This document shows, piece by piece, positions 12,545-51,655 of a stretch of DNA of 64,000 bases; positions within the stretch are counted from its first letter, which is position 1; each line of letters starts with the position of its first letter. A model generated the notes under the pieces. The model saw only the letters and a program-made list of their open reading frames with translations, was not told the DNA's origin and ran no database searches. A program made the position numbers and the translations under genes. This stretch comes from Microvelia longipes (lineage: Eukaryota > Arthropoda > Insecta > Hemiptera > Veliidae), in contig JACMZG010001914.1 in assembly GCA_018340805.1 (NCBI GenBank), forward strand, positions 13,759,270 to 13,823,269, in the 5' to 3' direction.

Positions 12545-15500
12545 TTGTGCAGTCTAGTAGGATGTGTTGTATTTTGTGCAGTCTAGTAGGATGTGTTCTA
12601 CTGTTTCGTCTATTGTCGGGCAGGAGTGGCATGCTGGGGAGTCGCTTAACCCAATCTTGTAGTGATATTGAATGCATCTGGCATGTTGACTTCTTAATCG
12701 TTTATCAGACAATATCTCTTGACAGTCTCGATTTCCAGAACCAAGGTTTAGCGGAACTATCTTGATGATTTTTCTTTAAATTTTCCCTTTCCTGGTTCTT
12801 CGTTGAGTTTGGTGTTCCAGTCTTTCTAGCATTTTCTTTTTTGATACTGATATAGATCACTTGCAGGTATTTTATAGCTCGATGATCTTGTTGGATTTTT
12901 TGCAAGGTGATCAGCTTGTTCATTTCCCTGGACTCCAGAGTGTGATTTTACCCATATAAAGTCTATTTGTTTGTACTGTTTGGTCAGTTCGTTTATTTCT
13001 TGTAGGATATGCATATATATGTGATCTATTTTGGAAGTGAGTGAAATGTGGATAGTTTTGTAAGTATTCCTTGGTTGTCGCAAGCAATAGTGTATTTGTT
13101 TTGAGTATTTTGTAATGTTTTTATATATGTAAGAGATTGTGAGATTCCTAAGCTTTCTAATGTAAATATGTTAGTGTACTGTGGGCATGAAAAACTTTGT
13201 CCAATTTTTAGTTGTAAGTCATAATATGAGTAACCAGTTTTGTCTTGTTGTTTTGATCCGTCGGTAAATATTAAGTAGGTGGGTTTGGATGTATGTTGTA
13301 TAGTTGTTCATGGAAAGTTATTTGTGTACGGATAAGTTAGTTGTATGTTATTGTTATGTTTGGTAGATATCGTCAAAAGAAATTTGATAGATTGGGAGTA
13401 ATTTATGTTGGTATATACTTTGGTTGAGATGAGGTTGTAATAATTGTAGCTATTTATATGTAATGGAGGTGTTTTATGTCGCCAGTATCGATGATTATTA
13501 TTTTTTTGTTGTTTAAATTGACAATAGTTAGTTAGTAAGGAGATTGTTGAGAATATAATTTGATGAGTGTTTGTCAGTCAGATATTGTCTTCGTATGTTA
13601 AGTGGTGGTTCTGAGCATTCAGTATGTATTATTGTTATTGGTGTGGTTTTAAGATATCCCATACATAATCTTAAAGCTCTGTATTGTAAACGGTCTAGTT
13701 TTGTAAGTAAGTATTGTTTGGCATTACCGTAAATGGGGAGGCAAAATCTATGCATGCCCGTATTGTTGCCCTATAAAATGTAATAAGAGTTTTTGGTCAC
13801 ATCCCCATGCTTTATTGCTGACCATTTTCATGATGTTAAGGTATTTTTCACATTTTGACTACTGTATTTATGGTCTTTCCATGTCAGTTTTTGGTCAAGG
13901 TAGAGTCCTAGAAATCTAACAGTTCTTTTCTTTTTATCTTATGTTGTCAAAAAGAATCTCGTCATCAAGAAGGACATTGTTACGTCTTGTAAAGATGCAA
14001 CATTCAATTTGTCTTGGATAGTTCTAACCCAGTAAGTTTTGTCCATTCTTGTATTTGTTTAGGGTGTTAGTTAGGTCGTTATCATGTCATTTATTTTGCT
14101 GTTATAGTATATATAAAGTATGTCGTCAGCAAATTGAAGTATTTTTACAGGAGGGGTTATAATTTGTTCTAAGTCAAAGGTATGTATTAAGTATAAAGTG
14201 GGCTTAAGATGGCCCCTTGAGGGACACCTCGTCTTGTGAGTCTACGTCCGACTATTGACCGTTAATTCGAAAAAGAAGGATTCGGTCAGTTATTAATTTA
14301 ATGATAAAGTTTGCAGTTTGTTTTGGTATGTCTAGTCGTAAAAGTTTGTGTGTAAGTATAGTTAAATCTACGTTGTCATAAGCCGTGATGTCTAATAAGA
14401 GATAATACTGATTTTTTTGAGTAATGCACTATGTATGTCATTTGTTAGTTGTGTTTGACTTTCTAGGGTTGATTTATTTCTTCTGAAGCCTTTTGTGAAA
14501 AAGGCAGTTTGTTATTGGATTCCAACCACCATTCTAATCTATTTTTTAGTAATCTTTCAAATGTCTTCAGCATGCAAGATGATAAAGATATTGGTCTATA
14601 GTTTGAAGCTATGTCACAGTTTTTCCTGGTTTTTTTATTGGGAGTATTATGTATGTGCCCATGAGTCAGGATTTGTTGAGAAGTCCAAATATTATTAAAT
14701 ATATTTAAAAGAATTTGTTTGATATTGTTGGTATGTTATGTCATAGTGTATATTATCAAAGCCGGGAGCAGTATTACTGTGCTTTATTGCAGCATTTAAT
14801 TCATTGATTGTAAAAGTTTCGGTCAGTATGTGATTATTATTGGTTGGGATATAGGTGGAGTTATGTTGTACTGACGGAGGGGCAAGTTTGTCCATAAAGT
14901 CTTCGAGCCATGTCCTGTATTAGTATGGGAGTCAAATTTCAGTTTTGTTTATTTTTCTAAAAGATTTCCAAACAGAAGATGGGGAATTTTTTGTAAAGTT
15001 TAAGCTGTCACAATATTTTTTCCAACCACTTTTTTGTTTACGTTTTAATGTTCGTCTAAATTAGCATTTGCTCTTTTGAAACTAATAAAAGTTTGTAAGT
15101 TAGGGTTAGTATTGTAATTTTGGTAAGCATATATAACGATCGTTTTTAGTTTGTTCACAACTAGAGTCCCACCAATGAATTAAATTAGGGTACGGAATTG
15201 AAGTAATTTACGTTTCTTTTTCAGGATAGATTTTTTGCATGCGTCGTTAATGTCTTGTATAAATTCATCGTAAGTTGTTGGGATGTGATTATCTAATACT
15301 TTTTTGTGTCAAAGTTAGTAAAGTGTCATGGTATTTCTGTCCAGTTAGCTTTATCAATATTCCAGCGTCTTGCTGGATACCTGTATAGTTTAGGTATATT
15401 TAAAGTTTGTTTCAAATTATAGGAGGTGTTGGAACCATGGGGTCGTCTAAAATTGTGCATGTAAAGTCCGTTGCAATATTGTTAGAAGCTAGAGAAAGTC

Positions 15501-24499: not shown

Positions 24500-24815
24500 C
24501 CAATGTTTACTTTTGCACCGTTTGATTTACAAATATTTACCTGTTTGTAATCAGGCAACGCGCTATCTTCCGATGCGTCCTGAAATCATCAAGATCTGGA
24601 ATATCCTTTGTTTGCTTTGGCAGATCATTAAACAAAGTTACCCCAATGTATTCAGAACTATTCTTATATGCAGTTGTATGGTGTTTTTTAAATCTTAACT
24701 TTTCATTAATTCACGTTTCATATCTGTGAATATTTCTATTATAAGTAAAATTTCTTAAATTATTTACATTACATGAAGTAGGAGTTACATAAGAACCCAA
24801 CTGAAACAGTCTTTG
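24500..24815 (-). pseudogene. Non-LTR RT, C-terminal part (decayed)
   Basis: Minus-strand frames read FQLGSYVTPTSCNVNNLRNF and then, after a frame break near 24,707, SSEYIGVTLFNDLPKQTKDI followed by PDLDDFRTHRK. The motif G-x-x-L-F/Y-N-x-L-P is typical of the last part of non-LTR reverse transcriptases. It is continuous in sense with the RT fragment at 25,495-25,960, from which it is split by the plus-strand element at about 24,815-25,490. Confidence 0.75.
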
Positions 24816-25211
24816 AGAAATGCCTTTGAAGAAGAATGGCAAAACTCACCTGGGTTGAGACAATCAAAGCTTATGCTTTCTGGCCCTTCTCAGGAACGCA
24901 CTAAGCTCATTTTATCACTAAGCAAAGGAGCTTGCCACGACTTGACTGGAATTCTTACAGGACATTGCAGACTCAATAGACATCTACATCTAATGGGTCT
25001 AGTGAATAGCCCGTTATGTAGATTCTGCAAAGAAGAGGATGAAACACCAGCTCATCTCATTGGGTCGTGTCCTGCTTTGAACCAACAACGTTGGCTGGAT
25101 TTCAACTTATTTTATTTTGAACCAGACCAGTTAAAAGAAATAGAAACTGATAAGTTATTACGATTTTGTCGTTCTACTTGGATTTTTAAGAAAATGGAAG
25201 AAACGCAGTGA
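24813..25211 (+). CDS. C-terminal end of a second non-LTR retrotransposon ORF2
   Basis: A clean 132-codon frame contains LTGHCRLNRHLHLMGLVNSP, LCRFCKEEDETPAHLIGSC and ILSLSK. This Cys/His-containing region follows RNase H in many insect elements with C-terminal RNase H. Upstream RT and RNase H parts are absent, so the element is 5'-truncated as usual for target-primed insertion. The frame is intact to its stop at 25,209-25,211. A 3' UTR with CA/TA repeats (25,285-25,370) and a poly(A)-rich end (25,459-25,487) follow. The ATG at 24,813 is internal to the original protein and is not a real start. The intact frame suggests it is younger than the minus-strand RT it interrupts. Confidence 0.8.
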   Translation: MRNAFEEEWQNSPGLRQSKLMLSGPSQERTKLILSLSKGACHDLTGILTGHCRLNRHLHLMGLVNSPLCRFCKEEDETPAHLIGSCPALNQQRWLDFNLFYFEPDQLKEIETDKLLRFCRSTWIFKKMEETQ

Positions 25212-32377: not shown

Positions 32378-32518
32378 TTTTAGCGAATTACCTTGGGAAA
32401 AAATCGCTAATGGGATAGGCGTCATGGCGGAATTCGAACCTCGGACCACGACACAAATCCGTTTCAGAGGTCCCTAATGACGAAAAAAAATTTCGCGAGA
32501 CTTTATATATATATATAT

Positions 32519-32574
<56 letters not shown>

Positions 32575-33240
32575 ATATGTATGTATTTCTAGACACTTTC
32601 TTGTAAACACTCTATCTCTCGAACGGATTAATATTTTTTAACCAACTTGGTACAAAAATCAACCTTTGGGAGAACACGAACCCTATTGAAAACCAGGTTT
32701 TTGTGACGTCATTAACCCGGTTTCTGAGTCAGCGAAATTTTCAAAAAATCAGCAAAATTCAGGGTTAATATTTTTTGCCGCAAAAAAGGGCAATATTTAT
32801 GTTTTTTGAGACGCTGAATCGAATGAAACCGGTCCGAAGTCGATACGACCACTCTAAGTGACCTAAAAATCGAAAAAACCATTGTAAATTACCAAAAACC
32901 AAAATTTAGGTCGATAAAAAAAATTTCGAGTAGGGTGTCGTTTTCTATGTAATTTTGGGCTTTGAATCGAATGAAACCGGTCCGAAGACGATACGACCAC
33001 TTTAAGTTACCAAAAAGTCGAAAATACCATTGTAAATAACCGAAAACCAATATTACGGTCGTTGAAAATGAAATTTCGAGTAGGGTGTCGTTTTCAATGG
33101 TTTTTGGGCCTCTGAGTTAAATGGCAGTGGTCCGGAGTCAATACGACCACTCAAACTCAGGGTACCTGGGTTCACTTCCTGGAGGGGTTGATAATTTTTT
33201 ATCGTTTTTTTTTACTAAATATAAGTTTACAACTAGAAAA
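32378..33240 (+). mobile_element. Composite repeat, part A (left inverted copy)
   Basis: It starts with the terminal hairpin TTTTAGCGAATTACCTTGGG / AAAAAATCGCTAATGGG, then GGCGTCATGGCGGAATTCGA with a B-box-like GGAATTCGAACCTC (read on the other strand GAGGTTCGAATTCC), then a (TA)n array at 32,503-32,576. Next comes an ATTAACCCG/GGGTTAAT pair, then a 149-bp tandem repeat (units starting near 32,813, 32,961 and 33,111, each with GAATGAAACCGGTCCGAAG-type sequence and AAATTTCGAGTAGGGTGTCG). The end has TACCTGGGTTCACTTCCTGG, another T-arm-like sequence. It is inverted and almost collinear with 42,904-43,775. No coding frame. Confidence 0.8.
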
Positions 33241-33955
33241 TAATTCTGGCGCGGTGGTCCGCATGTCGGGCGAATTTCCTTTGGATGCGTGTTTGCGTGC
33301 TTTTTACATTATATAAGTTTACAACTAGTAAATAAATAATTCCGGCGCGGTGGTCCGCTGTCGGGCGAATTTCATTTAGAATGCGTGTTTCCGTGCTAAA
33401 CAACCTATTTCTTGCTTATGCAAGAACCATGCCCATTGCGTGTTTCCGGTTCATGCTTTAGAACCTAAGCAGTTACTCAATTGTCAAGCACTGCTCGTAA
33501 CTCATTTTGTCTGTATTTTCCAAAGGAAATGCGCTAAAACATTTAAAAATAACTGACTAAGCTTAAAGATAAGTAACAAAGCTTTCAACTAATGCAAATA
33601 ATAGTGCGTACTTCTAATTTTAGAGGCATAGTTTTGTACAACCAACTGGATAATTATGCGCATTTCCTTTGGAAAATACAGACAAAATGAGTTACGAGCA
33701 GTGCTTGACAATTGAGTAACTGCTTAGGTTCTAAAGCATGAACCGGAAACACGCAATGGGCATGGTTCTTGCATAAGCAAGAAATAGGTTGTTTAGCACG
33801 GAAACACGCATTCTAAATGAAATTCGCCCGACAGCGGACCACCGCGCCGGAATTATTTATTTACTAGTTGTAAACTTATATAATGTAAAAAGCACGCAAA
33901 CACGCATCCAAAGGAAATTCGCCCGACATGTGGACCACCGCGCCAGAATTTTTTA
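33241..33955. mobile_element. Composite repeat, part B: 715-bp palindrome (left copy)
   Basis: The arms 33,241-33,533 and 33,658-33,951 are inverted copies. Each contains CTGGCGCGGTGGTCCGCATG, TGCGTGTTTCCGTGCTAAAC, TTCTTGCTTATGCAAGAACC and TTTTCCAAAGGAAATGCGC. The centre (about 124 bp, with AGTGCGTACTTCTAATTTTA) is not palindromic, and its orientation is reversed in the 42-kb copy. A is thus joined to B as one unit. It ends only 70 bp before the LDLa gene start. Confidence 0.85.
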
Positions 33956-34026: not shown

Positions 34027-34647
34027 ATGTTCAAGTATTTCTCAATCCTTAGTTTATTCTACGTTAGGTTGAGTTGCAGTTATAATTTAACTCAAGGAAA
34101 TTGTAAAGAAGGTTATGTTATGTGTGAAAAAGGTGAAAATTATAGAACAGGTGCAAGTGGTGATAAGTGTGTCAAGATTAGTAGTGTGTGTGATGATCAC
34201 CTGGATTGTAGTGACTCATCAGATGAAAAGTATTGTGATGGTAATTTTAACTTCGGGTACAAAGGATTTTCTCTTAAATTGATCAGAGGTGGTTGCAATG
34301 CAACACATTCATTATGTCTAACAGGAATAGTTAAGCATCCATCCTGGTCAAAAGGTTATGCTGATCTAAGATGCTTTGATAATGCTTGGATTTGCCATAG
34401 TGGGGTTGAATATGCTTGCAAAGATAAATCAGACGAAGGATATTGTCCCTACAACAAAACATCAAACATGTTTAATTTTCAATTTTCAAAATCAGACTGT
34501 CCTCGTAATTTCTTTAATTGTAAAACAGGAAAGCCTAAACATTTCACTAATGGGTCAATCCATATCAAGTGTCCCAGACTTGGATGCTCAAAAAAAATAG
34601 ATTTTGATAATTATTTTGCTATTGATACCCATATCTATGGTGAGTAA
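34027..34647 (+). CDS. LDLa-domain membrane protein, 5' part (interrupted)
   Basis: I start at the ATG at 34,027, because it opens a signal peptide (MFKYFSILSLFYVRLSCSYN). An in-frame ATG at 33,973 would place 18 polar residues before it. LDLa domain 1 has cysteines at residues 26, 33, 48, 55, 61 and 70 and the acidic CSDSSDEKYC. Domain 2 has cysteines at 90, 97, 116, 123, 131 and 140, with KSDEGYC kept but the first acidic residue replaced (ICHSG), so calcium binding is doubtful. Domain 3 begins with cysteines 158 and 165. Host coding stops at codon 175 (34,551). The last 32 codons to the stop at 34,645 are transposon sequence. LDLa modules bind ligands outside the cell. The specific ligand is unknown. 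N-glycosylation motifs occur at residues 20, 91 and 143. A weak acceptor-like TTGTCTCGCAG lies at 33,974-33,984, so an upstream exon is possible. Confidence 0.85.
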   Translation: MFKYFSILSLFYVRLSCSYNLTQGNCKEGYVMCEKGENYRTGASGDKCVKISSVCDDHLDCSDSSDEKYCDGNFNFGYKGFSLKLIRGGCNATHSLCLTGIVKHPSWSKGYADLRCFDNAWICHSGVEYACKDKSDEGYCPYNKTSNMFNFQFSKSDCPRNFFNCKTGKPKHFTNGSIHIKCPRLGCSKKIDFDNYFAIDTHIYGE

Positions 34648-36258
34648 AAAATGACCAATATAAATTTTTTATGGTCACCCGTTATTTTTTTATGGTCACT
34701 TTTATGGTCCTCCGACCCTAAAATTTAGTGATTTTTTACCTTCAGATAAGCAGCCGATACTCGGTTCTCGCTTGTACTACAGGAAAAATATGAACGGATC
34801 TGTTTAAAGCAAGCTTTGAGCTGCATTTGGCCCTTTGACACTTTTGCTCTATGATCGCTCCTTGGGGGGGCAATGGGGGCTCCAATTTTAGGGTTTCTTA
34901 AAAATATATGAAAATTTTAACATTTTTTATAATATGAAGAAATCTGAATTAAGAGCTCCCAATTTTTTTAGGACTTACTTACTTTAAGACAAGGAATCAA
35001 CAACATTTTCAAAGCATTTATATAATTCGTTTATGAGCTATGATTTTTTGAAAATCCATATTTTTTAATTTTTGGTCATTTTTGACCTTCAATATCTCCC
35101 TTGGACATGTATACTTTTTAACAAAAATCATATCACAAAGACCCCTTACCAGTGTCTACATAAACCACTAAAAACATTCTTGTGTATTTGCCCACAAGCA
35201 AAGTTATAGCTAAATCATATATGTGTGATTTTCCAAATATTAAATAATATATATTTTTTTTTATAATGTGAAGAAATCAAAATTAAGAGCTCCTAATTTT
35301 TTTAAGAGTTGCTTAGATTAAGACAAACATCCATCCAAATTTTTAAAGCTTTGATGTAATTCGTTTATGAGCTATGATTTTTTGAAAAATATGGATTTTT
35401 TAAATTTTGGTCATTTTTTCAAAAAATCATAGCTCATAAACGAATTACATCAAGCTTTAAAAATTTGGATGGATGTTTGTCTTAATCTAAGCAACTCTAA
35501 AAAAATTAGGAGCTCTTAATTTTGATTTCTTCACATTATAAAAAAAATATATATTATTTGATATTTGGAAAATCACACATATATGATTTAGCTATAACTT
35601 TGCTTGTGGGCAAATACACAAGAATGTTTTTAGTGGTTTATGTAGACACTGGTAAGGGGTCTTTGTGATATGATTTTTGTTAAAAAGTATACATGTCCAA
35701 GGGAGATATTGAAGGTCAAAAATGACCAAAAATTAAAAAATATGGATTTTCAAAAAATCATAGCTCATAAACGAATTATATAAATGCTTTGAAAATGTTG
35801 TTGATTCCTTGTCTTAAAGTAAGTAAGTCCTAAAAAAATTGGGAGCTCTTAATTCAGATTTCTTCATATTATAAAAAAATGTTAAAATTTTCATATATTT
35901 TTAAGAAACCCTAAAATTTGGAGCCCCCATTGCCCCCCCAAGGAGCGATCATAGAGCAAAAGTGTCAAAGGGCCAAATGTAGCTCAAAGCTTGCTTTAAA
36001 CAGATCCGTTCATATTTTTCCTGTAGTACAAGCGAGAACCGAGTATCGGCTGCTTATCTGAAGGTAAAAAATCACTAAATTTTAGGGTCGGAGGACCATA
36101 AAAGTGACCATAAAAAAATAACGGGTGACCATAAAAAATTTATATTGGTCATTTTTTACTCACCATAGATATGGGTATCAATAGCAAAATAATTATCAAA
36201 ATCTATTTTTTTAGAGCACCTTTTTTTATTTTTTGGGACACTTGATATGGATTGACCC
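34552..36258. mobile_element. 1,707-bp fold-back element inserted in the LDLa coding sequence
   Basis: The terminal inverted repeats start GGGTCAATCCATATCAAGTG and are flanked by a direct TAAT at 34,548-34,551 and 36,259-36,262. The arms (34,552-35,384 and 35,418-36,258) are nearly identical over about 830 bp, apart from a divergent patch of about 13-20 bp near each tip and a few substitutions. The loop is about 33 bp. Each arm holds two direct sub-repeats about 330 bp apart (with AAGAAATC and ATTAAGAGCTCC). There is no transposase frame, so it is non-autonomous. A 4-bp TAAT, or a 3-bp TAA with one extra T, could suit a PIF/Harbinger-like mover, but family is unproven. Confidence 0.9.
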
Positions 36259-36262
36259 TAAT

Positions 36263-36715
36263 TTAAGTGAAAATTGTATTAAAAAATCTTGGATTTGTGA
36301 CGGGTATCAAGATTGCCACGATAACTCTGACGAGCAATTTTGTCCTTATTTCTTTGATTTGCCACAAAAAGAGTCAACCAAATTTACCCCAGTTATAGAA
36401 ACAACGACAACATTTTCAGAAACAACATTAGATCTCACAGAAATTACTTCAAAAGAAGAAAATACAACAGCGGCCTTTAATATTACAACATCCGATGAAG
36501 ACGCAATACTGGAAATGGGTTTACCAGAAGAAACAACAGAGCAATCGACAGCCAAATCTCAATATAATGCGTTAAATGAGCAGTCTTATCCGTATGGTCT
36601 AGTTATTAATTCCTATATTACAATGCTCTGTCTGCTGATATTAATAACAATAACGATCAAATATAGGAAATCGCGTAACTATAATAATGATTATAATTTA
36701 AACCCACTTTCATAA
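36263..36715 (+). CDS. LDLa-domain membrane protein, 3' part (interrupted)
   Basis: The frame continues from codon 175 once the insertion and one TAAT are left out. Cysteines at 180, 187, 193 and 202 complete LDLa domain 3, with CDGYQDCHDNSDEQFC keeping all calcium-type acidic positions. A Thr/Ser/Glu-rich stalk follows (about residues 203-285, with TTTTF, NTTA, NITT), typical of O-glycosylated spacers. Then comes one hydrophobic segment (about 287-307, ITMLCLLILITITI) with KYRKSR after it as the stop-transfer signal, and an 18-residue cytoplasmic tail ending NYNNDYNLNPLS. The intact protein would have 325 residues, as a type I membrane protein. As read, the piece lacks its own start except an ATG inside the transposon (36,233). 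The family name is not assigned. LDLa proteins of this short type are not specific enough. Confidence 0.85.
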   Translation, partial: LSENCIKKSWICDGYQDCHDNSDEQFCPYFFDLPQKESTKFTPVIETTTTFSETTLDLTEITSKEENTTAAFNITTSDEDAILEMGLPEETTEQSTAKSQYNALNEQSYPYGLVINSYITMLCLLILITITIKYRKSRNYNNDYNLNPLS

Positions 36716-36960
36716 TTTATTTATTCTAGTATATAATTTAACTATACTAACAGTGATTATAATTTAACTCCACGTACATAATTTATTTATTCTAATTTAT
36801 AATTTAACTATAATAACAGTGGTTATAATTTAACTCTACTTTTATAATTTATTTATTCTATTATATAATTTAAGTACAATAACAGTGATTATAATTTAAC
36901 TCCACGTACATAATTTATTTATTCTGATTTATAATTTAACTATAGTTAAATATAAATTAA
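36677..36960 (+). repeat. 65-bp tandem array copied from the gene's own 3' end
   Basis: Units start at about 36,677, 36,740, 36,806, 36,872 and 36,938 (AACTATAATAACAGTGATTA type, then ACATAATTTATTTATTCT). The first unit overlaps the last 13 codons and stop of the LDLa gene. Later units have substitutions and are non-coding. A stray half unit lies at 37,150-37,185. Tandem duplication across the stop codon explains it. Confidence 0.85.
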
Positions 36961-42085: not shown

Positions 42086-42110
42086 CATCAAATTTACTAA
42101 AATTAAAAAA

Positions 42111-42903
42111 TTCTGGCGCGGTGGTCCGCATGTCGGGCGAATTTCCTTTGGATGCGAGCTCTCAAACCCAGAGTACCTGGGTTCAAATCCTAGTAGGGAC
42201 AATAATTTTTTATCGTTTTTTTACCTAATATAAGTTTACAACTAAAAATAACTCCGGCGCGGTGGTCCGCAGTCGGGCGAATTTCATTTAGAATGCGTGT
42301 TTCCGTGCTAAACAACCCATTTCTTGCTTATGCAAGAACCATGCCCATTGCATGGTTCCGGTTCATGCTTTAGAAGCTTAGCAGTTACTCAATTGTCAAG
42401 CACTGCTCGTAACTCATTTTGTCTGTATTTTCCAAAGGAAATGCGCATAATTATCCAGTTGGTTGTACAAAACTATGCCTCTAAAATTAGAAGTACGCAC
42501 TATTATTTGCACTAGATTAAAGCTTAGTTACTTATATTTAAGCTTAGTCAGTTATCTTTAAAGGTTTTAGCGCATTTCCTTTGGAAAATACAGACAAAAT
42601 GAGTTACGAGCAGTGCTTGACAATTGAGTAACTGCTAAGCTTCTAAAGCATGAACCGGAACCATGCAATGGGCATGGTTCTTGCATAAGCAAGAAATGGG
42701 TTGTTTAGCACGGAAACACGCATTCTAAATGAAATTCGCCCGACAGCGGACCACCGCGCCGGAGTTATTTTTAGTTGTAAACTTATATTAGGTAAAAAAA
42801 CGATAAAATTATTGTCCCTACTAGGATTTGAACCCAGGTACTTGGGTTTAAGAGCTCGCATCCAAAGGAAATTCGCCCGACATGCGGACCACCGCGCCAG
42901 AAT
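42111..42903. mobile_element. Composite repeat, part B: palindrome (right copy)
   Basis: Arms run from CTGGCGCGGTGGTCCGCATG (42,113) to about 42,445 and from 42,569 to 42,900. They include TACCTGGGTTCAAATCCTAG, a B-box/T-arm-like sequence at 42,174, and its inverse at 42,823. The centre is the reverse of that in the 33-kb copy, so the whole A-B unit is inverted. The arms are longer than in the left copy by a short insertion (GAGCTCTCAAACCCAGAG). Confidence 0.85.
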
Positions 42904-43557
42904 TATTTTCTAGTTGTAAACTTATATTTAGTAAAAAAAAACGATAAAAAATTATCGACCCTTCAGGATGTGAACCCAGGTACTGAGTTTGAGTGGTCGT
43001 ATTGACTCCGGACCACTGCCATTCAACTCAGAGGCCAAAAACATTGAAAACGACACCCTACTCGAAATTTAATTTTTAACGACCGTAATATTGGGTTTCT
43101 ATATTTTTGTGGTTTTTTCGACTTTTTGGTAACTTAAGGTGGTCGTATCGTCTTTCGGACCGGTTTCATTTCGATTCAGCGCCCAAAATTACATAGAAAA
43201 CGACACCCTACTTGAAATTTATTTTTTAATGACCGTAATATTGGTTTTCTATTTTTTTGTGGTTTTTTCGATTTTTAGGTCACTTAGAGTGGCGTATCGA
43301 CTTCGGACCGGTTTCATTCGATTTCAGCGTCTCAAAAAAACATAAATAGTGACCTTTTTCGTGGCAAAAAATATTAACCCTGAATTTGCTGATTTTTTGA
43401 AAATTTCGCTGACTGAGCAAACCGGGTTAATGACGTCACAAAAAAACCTGGTTTTCAATAGGGTTCGTGTCCTCCCGAAGGTTGATTTTTGTACCAAGTT
43501 TGGTTAAAAATATTAATCCGTTCGAGAGATGGAGTGTTTACAAGAAAGTGTCTAGAA

Positions 43558-43648
<91 letters not shown>

Positions 43649-43775
43649 GTCTCGCGAAAATTTTTTTTTTCGTCATTAGGGACCTCTGAAACGGATTTGT
43701 GTCGTGGTCGAGGTTCGAATTCCGCCATGACGCCTATCCCATTAGCGATTTTTTCCCAAAGGAAATTCGCTAAAA
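42904..43775 (-). mobile_element. Composite repeat, part A (right inverted copy)
   Basis: This is the reverse complement of 32,378-33,240: the 149-bp tandem units with ACACCCTACTCGAAATTT and CGGACCGGTTTCATT, then GGGTTAATGACGTCACAAAA, a TA array (43,560-43,648), TCGTCATTAGGGACCTCTGA, AGGTTCGAATTCCGCCATGA and the end hairpin ATTAGCGATTTTTTCCCAAA / GGAAATTCGCTAAAA. Divergence from the left copy is mostly single substitutions and indels. Confidence 0.8.
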
Positions 43776-49510: not shown

Positions 49511-50385
49511 CTATTTATTTAAATTAAAAGTTTTAATTAAGCTTCATAATAAATAAATAAACAATTAATAAATTAAAGCTTTATAAACTTTACCCGACCA
49601 CAGCCAGATCAGATTAAGATCATAAGTAATTATTGTACGTGTAAAAATTTGATTAAAATTGTAATTTGATCTAATAAATGGTTATTCATTCATTCAAGCT
49701 GGCCAGACTGTAACAACATTAAGTTATGTAATAACTACCTGTGGCGTAATCAGGTTGTTATACTATTATTTACAGTTTTCACTAAGAAAATTAGGCAGTA
49801 AAACTTGGTTTTCTGCTGCTTAAACGTTAAAGAATAAATTGTAATAACAATAACAATAAAATCCAATTTTTGGATTCTAACTAATTATTATAATTAATTG
49901 GAATTCTTTAATCGCTACTAATTTACCATCTTCCTTCTCTCGTTTAAGGGCCTTAAATTAGTACAACAAATAATTTTATAGAATTTTTTAATTATTGTAG
50001 AATCATTTCGTCTCTGCTTGGCTTGCCCCAGGAGCTCTATTTATATGTATTATAACCTGAACAAAAATAGCGTATCATATAAAATAATTTTATCTTATCA
50101 AAATATCAGTCAAATTAAACCCTAACGGTTCCTGTATCATTCTATTATTTCCTTACCAATATATCAGCATCATATCACAAGTTATAATTTTAAATAAAAG
50201 ACAAAAGTTTTTAATTGGACTTTTCAAGCTAATTATATAATATGAAGCAACAGGTTGAGACCAACTCTTGTTGACATTTAAACATTTCTTATTTTTATTA
50301 TTTCATATATTTTTACGATGCTCCTGTTAATGTTATTTCCGTATTTTAAATGTCCAATCTTGAATCAATTTGTGTATTTTATTTC
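49511..50385. other. AT-rich spacer, no gene seen
   Basis: AAATAAATAAAC words near 49,545 and 49,670. No gene or family match. Confidence 0.4.
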
Positions 50386-51320
50386 AAATGCAACTTCATT
50401 TTGCCACCGTATTAAAGTGTGAAATAAAGTGATTCGTAATGTGAATATGTGATTTAAAATGCAACTTCATTTTGCCACTGTATTAAAGGGTGAAATAAAG
50501 TGATTCGTAATGTGAATATGTGATTTTAAATGCAACTTCATTTTGCCACCATATAAGGGTGAGATAAATTAATTCGTATGTAATATGCGATTTTTATATG
50601 TAACTTCATTTGCCACCATAAAGGGTGAGATAAATTAATTCGTAATGTGAATATGCGAATTTTAAAATGTAACTTCATTTTGCCACATATAAGGGTGAGA
50701 TAAATTAATTCGTAATGTGAATATGCGAATTTTAAATGTAACTTCATTTTGCCACCATATAAGGGTGAGATAAATTAATTCGTAATGTGAATATGCGAAT
50801 TTTAAATGTAACTTCATTTTGCCACCATATAAGGGTGAGATAAATTAATTCGTAATGTGAATATGCGAATTTTAAATGTAACTTCATTTTGCCACCATAT
50901 AAGGTGAGATAAATTAATTCGTAATGTGAAATGCGAATTTTAAAATGTAACTTCATTTTGCACCATATAAGGGTGAGATAAATAATTCGTAATGTGAATA
51001 TGCGAATTTAAATGCAACTTCATTTTGCCACCATATAAGGGTGAGATAAATTAATTCGTAATGTGAATGTGCGAATTTTAAATGTAACTTCATTTTGCCA
51101 CCATATAAAGGGTGAGATAAATTAATTCGTAATGTGAATATGCGATTTAATGCAACTTCATTTGCCACCATTAAGGGTGAGATAAATTAATTCGTTATGT
51201 GAATGTGCGAATTTTAATGTAACTTCATTTGCCACCATATAAGGGTGAGATAAATTGATTCGTAATGTGAATATGCGAATTTTAAATGTAACTTCATTTT
51301 GCCACCATAAAGGGGTGAAA
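50386..51320. repeat. 70-bp minisatellite, about 14 units
   Basis: Units start with TAACTTCATTTTGCCACCAT, then ATAAGGGTGAGATAAATTAA and TTCGTAATGTGAATATGCGA. They lie at about 50,392, 50,463, 50,534, 50,602, 50,671, 50,740, 50,810, 50,880, 50,950, 51,015, 51,086, 51,155, 51,220 and 51,290. The first units (GTATTAAAGTGTGAAATAAA) differ most. Many differences are single-base indels. Minus-strand frames of about 70 codons cross units in changing frames and are not genes. Confidence 0.95.
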
Positions 51321-51655
51321 TATCCTACAGGGCAAATGAGGAAAATTAAAAATGTTTTGTCTGATTACGTGCTTTCGTTCAATTTGTGTGTGAATTATGT
51401 TTTTTTCGAAAAATCATCCATTTGTGTTTAAATTTGGCACGATAGTAGTATAAAAAATTCTCAGTTATACCAGATTTTCTCTGTTATATAAGGGATGAGC
51501 TAAAATCAGCTTACTACTTAGCAGTTCGTTTGTTTGTTTTAAATTTGATTGAATGATTAATAATCATACATTTGCCATAATACAATTAAAAACATTTTAC
51601 ATGCAACTTTAATAAATATATATTCACGTTATGTTTAATCATATATACTTTTATT
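51321..51655. other. AT-rich spacer, no gene seen
   Basis: No recognised signal. Confidence 0.4.

Follow-up and report, generated by a model that had tools for sequence, protein, structure and literature searches.

How a gene for an LDL-receptor-like membrane protein with LDLa domains came to be divided, in the middle of a domain, by a long palindrome is the question raised by this locus of Microvelia longipes. In the 64-kb stretch of DNA that was analysed, hereafter the window, the features concerned are arranged as follows.

34027..34551, + strand: 5' coding part, with a signal-peptide-like start, LDLa 1, LDLa 2 and the first two cysteines of LDLa 3 (open frame; Pfam LDLa, 7e-5; 43 matches elsewhere in the genome, with some loci counted repeatedly)
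34548..34551, no strand: left TAAT, target-site duplication (sequence)
34552..36258, no strand: palindromic transposon of 1,707 bp, non-autonomous by its structure (arm alignment; family copies)
34552..35394, + strand: left arm, a long terminal inverted repeat of 843 bp as aligned (arm alignment)
35424..36258, - strand: right arm, 835 bp as aligned (arm alignment)
36259..36262, no strand: right TAAT, target-site duplication (sequence)
36263..36715, + strand: 3' coding part, with the remaining LDLa 3, a Thr/Ser-rich stalk, a hydrophobic (membrane) segment and the stop (open frame; Pfam LDLa, 2e-8; hydropathy 2.27; 52 matches elsewhere in the genome, with many loci counted repeatedly)

The element begins with GGGTCAATCC and finishes with its reverse complement, GGATTGACCC, and is bracketed by the two TAAT copies inside the LDLa reading frame, a description in which the first-pass annotation was correct to the base. 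It is a near-perfect palindrome, with 6 mismatches and 28 gap columns among 853 aligned arm columns and with the outermost 25 bp of the arms 100% complementary; the main difference between left and right is a small block close to the ends, which is also seen in other copies, and diverged direct repeats with a spacing of ~334 bp occur within the arms. Folded as RNA, the element forms 834 pairs with an MFE of -1386.8 kcal/mol; two shuffled versions reach -345.1 and -318.2. No stop-to-stop frame of at least 70 aa lies wholly inside it, and no second copy was found by blastn in the 64-kb window. A palindromic target preference at the empty site (8/10 pairs) was considered and dropped because 4.1% of random places score at least as high.

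Pfam reports LDLa on both sides of the element, upstream with 23.4 bits, slightly below the cut-off of 24.1, and downstream with 34.7 bits over profile positions 12-37 of 37. Upon removal of 1,711 bp, corresponding to the element and one TAAT, codon 175 runs into a 150-codon frame that ends in a stop, in agreement with the earlier claim of a junction without frameshift. When 14 removal lengths (1704-1717) were tested, the frame stayed open throughout for the five that equal 1 mod 3, and each of the remaining nine met a stop no more than 44 codons past the join; frame restoration by itself is a one-in-three outcome. The cysteine distances are 7, 15, 7, 6 and 9 in domain 1, 7, 19, 7, 8 and 9 in domain 2, and again 7, 15, 7, 6 and 9 in the joined domain 3. 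The first-pass annotation gave the figures for domains 1 and 3 correctly, but in taking their identity as strong internal proof of insertion it went too far, since the C2-C3 loop of LDLa 3, counted from Cys to Cys, varies from 6 to 20 residues across 27 paralogs. Because of this variation the paralogs provide a stronger test than domain 1 set against domain 3, and it is the comparison with them that constitutes the real proof.

The genome was searched with each half of the gene, which gave 44 matches for the 5' part and 53 for the 3' part, both including the locus itself and with several loci counted repeatedly. Only the window locus was 100% identical in each search, and hence neither half search revealed a second haplotype or an empty allele of the window gene in the assembly. 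Cutting out the loci of the 30 top matches among the 44 gave the window and 29 paralogs (L024-L052). A single open frame passes through the insertion point in 27 of these paralogs, and nothing is found at that point in 28, L028 being the only interrupted one; L040 carries a TGA upstream of the site, yet the same frame continues across it. Aligned to the paralogs as separate fragments, the two window halves abut, the 5' part ending at column 317 and the 3' part starting at column 318, and the LSE that follows the second TAAT lines up with coding residues of the paralogs. The loop of the nearest paralog reads CKTGKPKHTTNLTESC, against CKTGKPKHFTNLSENC in the empty-site reading of the window, and the loop value of 15 recurs in five of the 27 continuous paralogs, among them the three nearest in the tree. 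Likewise, the ten other members of the branch that holds the window gene are uninterrupted at the site. The proposal of an insertion into a coding exon is thereby upheld, and two findings that had been named in advance as fatal to it did not materialize: the two parts do not come from different proteins, as both match the same paralogs, in order and in the same frame, and the place is not occupied by a normal intron in 28 of the 29 paralogs of the same genome, which stand in here for related species.

The family to which these paralogs belong is large and dispersed (L024-L052, L074-L076) and, within the loci that were cut out, apparently intronless. Of the 27 continuous members, 22 carry a C-terminal segment that is strongly hydrophobic, L074-L076 are shorter relatives with a single LDLa domain, and in the close pair L043/L048 a dN/dS of 0.71 was obtained on 12.5 synonymous and 39.5 non-synonymous changes. 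Relatives of either gene half were found neither in a collection of 5.8 billion proteins at E <= 0.001 (23 and 14 candidates) nor in viral contigs, and literature searches under the terms of LDLa genes with foldback insertions or intronless LDLa families returned none.

The state of the gene when the element arrived can be approached through 48 alignment columns in which 85% or more of the 27 continuous paralogs agree. At none of these does the window gene carry a different residue, a score equalled by one of the 27 paralogs, the other 26 departing at 1 to 5; its membership in the LDLa family is thus displayed by 48/48 conserved columns, as well as by the cysteine pattern and Pfam. In a tree of the 5' parts its end branch measures 0.53, against a median of 0.83. 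Compared with four close paralogs, dN is 0.38-0.58 and synonymous sites are near or at saturation in 8/8 comparisons (not computable in 5). Conserved columns and branch length speak for constraint on the gene until a recent time, and give no date. Some features of the surroundings would suit a different history, in which the gene was an old pseudogene, dead before the element reached it: the window has few long frames and many repeats, one repeat ends ~70 bp upstream of the LDLa start codon, and family members do die, since L040 carries its TGA. Such a history is nevertheless exceedingly improbable for a gene whose halves are both entirely open, which has lost none of the 48 conserved columns and whose end branch is short. 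That the insertion itself is young compared with the gene family is supported by the conserved residues, the unremarkable branch and the 97-98% identity to other copies of the element, so that the earlier description of the gene as recently intact appears sound, though undated.

A search for those other copies, which the first-pass annotation had proposed, was carried out in the 664,620,837 bp (664.6 Mb) of the genome, in 1,470 contigs, and revealed a multicopy family. Exact GGGTCAATCC ends number 979 genome-wide, against 322 for a reversed-control sequence. With the first 360 bp of the element as query, 40 of 419 first-look candidates were scored, giving 44 matches dispersed over many contigs; the best non-self copy is 98% identical over the 360 bp, and 38 of the 44 lie at 95-97% identity, one of them being the element's own right arm. 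Out of 100 of the GGGTCAATCC places listed, 13 regions and then 20 more were read. The first 13 comprised nine pairs of ends picked from the list, three regions without a usable pair and the window; among the further 20, eight had no family sequence behind the 10-mer and 12 had a family-like end, four of these with a second end less than 4 kb away. Together with L007 and the window, the nine and four pairs make up 15 two-ended copies. Exact 4-bp target duplications flank nine of the 15 (TAAT, GGTG, ATAT, ACGT, AGTA, ACTT, ACAT, TATA and TTAC), when such a match is expected by chance in 0.8% of random pairs of the window's composition; the duplicated bases vary from copy to copy and the surrounding flanks are unrelated. 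Two more copies (L011 and L060) have a 4-bp duplication with one mismatch, and four (L012, L015, L016 and L059) have none as read, L015 showing only 3 bp and L059 an indel in its far end. The family is therefore multicopy, generates 4-bp duplications and has apparently been active recently.

In L012 and L016 the flanks are mirrored past the element ends (GATTTTAATTTA/TAAATTAAAATC and ATGAGAAGGAAA/TTTCCTTCTCAT) and no 4-bp duplication is seen, which points to a larger palindrome or an assembly artefact; L012 also has a third end, with a 3-bp match. Mirrored flanks are what hairpin artefacts would give, and they might lead one to suspect that the palindrome of the window was likewise made by a hairpin or chimeric read. 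The probability of this is close to nil, as the flanks in the window are coding and colinear, a 4-bp duplication is present, and the left and right ends of the element are not identical, the small block that distinguishes them being found again in other copies.

Three copies, L053, L058 and L071, form a diverged subfamily with GGGTCAATCCATATCACGTG-like ends; the left flank TTTTTTTAA is also common to them, and their end may therefore be internal to a longer repeat. Inspection by eye of the copies read, some of which contain masked stretches, revealed neither a recognisable transposase nor an autonomous member. L087, a pair of ends 9.1 kb apart with 5,000 masked bases inside, was tried as an autonomous partner and rejected, no transposase being recognised; we take its internal frames, read by eye, to be LINE-like. 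A frame at L059, presumably Harbinger-like as read by eye, sits outside the ends of that element as read. Outside the genome, viral contigs held no exact match to two patterns of the element and phages none, and the alignment to a bacterial contig with a 20-mer match was limited to that 20-mer and one 13-bp stretch and was judged to be chance. None of the papers listed for GGGTCAATCC was taken to concern a transposon.

By structure, the element would be classed as foldback-like, non-autonomous and with long terminal inverted repeats, for the inverted repeats form most of it, a target-site duplication is present and the dispersed copies have unrelated flanks. Long inverted repeats likewise fill much of Tm1 (PMC3169594), Tetris (PMC4079207) and Galileo (PMC3573991), and elements of this foldback type share with the present one the repeats within the arms, the non-coding members and the signs of recent activity. 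The likeness is one of structure. Duplications in Tm1 are 8-10 bp (PMC3169594) and 4 bp here, and Galileo is assigned to the P superfamily via its transposase (PMC3573991), a basis that the copies read here do not offer. Several superfamilies were rejected on published criteria: Mutator-like elements need a duplication of 7-12 bp, CACTA elements CACTA/CACTG ends and a 3-bp duplication, and Tc1/mariner elements a TA duplication (PMC10741241), all excluded by the duplication of 4 bp, and Ginger, for which TGTNR ends are required (PMC2836005), is excluded by the ends GGGTCAATCC. Sola elements also have 4-bp duplications, together with highly variable ends and terminal inverted repeats of 11 to 1,124 bp (PMC10741241 and PMC3627910). 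Sola thus fits by duplication length and repeat range, but membership would also call for a Sola-type DDD transposase in an autonomous partner, and the element was not filed there; the duplications described for Sola2 are AWWT or AT-rich (PMC3627910), unlike the GGTG and ACGT found in this family.

The single interrupted paralog raises the question of whether the interruption in the window could work as an intron, the element being removed from the pre-mRNA and the protein still made. L028 (C1361, L073) holds a 4,003-bp intron with canonical GT-AG borders (L073:85-4087 = G000:C1361:7317334-7321336), whose donor stands after the same codon as the transposon of the window (CCTAAACATTTCCCGAATG/GTAAGT, the slash marking the junction), and TTTCAG precedes the second exon. 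Introners can likewise be non-autonomous DNA elements with terminal inverted repeats and 4-bp duplications located in coding exons (PMC9860276). Moreover, a splice donor is present in the element itself.

34640..34645, + strand: consensus-like splice donor GTGAGT in the arm, for which no acceptor was found that is in frame and also preserves LDLa 3 (splice-site scan)

This strong donor (ATG/GTGAGT) lies 88 bp inside the element end and is found in 10 of the 11 subfamily-A arms examined; it is absent from the three diverged copies (L053, L058 and L071) and from the six subfamily-B copies examined, and it does not seem to be specially kept, because the arms are conserved as a whole. Scored with rough weights, the 13 in-frame open donor/acceptor pairs in the scanned ranges reach at best 7.5, whereas the six that preserve LDLa 3 from the third cysteine onward score only -1.9 to -10.1; the in-frame acceptors of the strong donor all lie past the third cysteine, with partial or whole loss of the rest of LDLa 3. 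Frame and all cysteines would be preserved by a weak pair, TGG/GTCAAT with TTTAAG/T. Removal of the element as a functional intron is accordingly very improbable, the more so as LSE aligns to coding residues and the ten other members of the branch have no interruption. In addition, L028 groups apart from the window gene with moderate support (93/88 for its own group, 88/98 for that of the window), its intron stretch gave no blastn match to the element, and the element, with 1,707 bp and ends without good splice sites, departs from introners, whose family median lengths are reported as 30-654 nt (PMC9860276).

The coincidence of position remains to be considered. In a gene of ~975 bp the chance that two positions fall within a few bases of one another is, by rough estimate, well under one in a hundred, a figure to be read knowing that the coincidence was noticed post hoc, since L028 was cut at that place. 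The C2-C3 loop is presumably tolerant of change because it is length-variable. It is conceivable, albeit very doubtful, that this loop of domain 3 is a recurrent interruption site, used by the intron of L028 and by a transposon with its own donor at the same codon, and that the element is partly spliced, yielding a chimeric secreted or anchored protein and marking an early step in the making of an intron out of a foldback element.

Since the paralogs are uninterrupted, the halves abut and the element belongs to a multicopy family with 4-bp duplications, we hold with high confidence that the gene in the window has suffered a recent insertion into an intact coding exon. A non-autonomous transposon with two inverted arms of ~840 bp, mobilised in trans, would have entered a previously intact, apparently single-exon, membrane-anchored LDLa gene, recently in relation to the gene family; its target would have been a TAAT within the C2-C3 loop of LDLa 3, cut with a 4-bp stagger. 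The transposase was probably supplied in trans and the movement cut-and-paste; the 4-bp duplication and the interruption of the frame are observed. Beyond codon 175 the frame continues into the element.

34552..34647, + strand: element-encoded tail of 31 codons and a stop, in frame with the gene, for a predicted truncated product of 206 aa (open frame)

The allele would now encode at most 206 aa, comprising LDLa 1, LDLa 2, half of LDLa 3 and 31 element residues, and the truncated product is predicted to be secreted, having neither stalk nor membrane anchor. A read-through transcript would fold as a hairpin of ~830 pairs, a likely trigger of small-RNA silencing, possibly of the window gene and perhaps also of its close relatives; if the hairpin-forming insertion silences paralogs in trans, this is directly testable. 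The locus offers a clean case, paralog empty sites included, of a palindromic transposon breaking a coding exon, and through the disrupted gene a large family of LDLa membrane proteins, apparently without introns, has come to light. The disruption itself is of an ordinary kind, and the more open questions concern this family and the interruption site shared with L028.

Other repeats are found around the gene. Two copies of another repeat of ~1.6 kb, each with its own palindrome, flank it as an inverted pair (~32378-33955 and 42105-43775), the first being the one that ends ~70 bp before the LDLa start codon. The final codons and the stop of the gene lie where a tandem array of 66-bp repeats begins (36676-36944). 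At 24777-25208 a zf-RVT match below the Pfam cut-off and one database protein with 40% identity were found; this stretch and 12554-14919, the latter judged from frames only, are what we take to be LINE reverse transcriptase/RNase H-like remains. A further tandem array, at 50381-51322, consists of 13.6 copies of a 70-bp unit.
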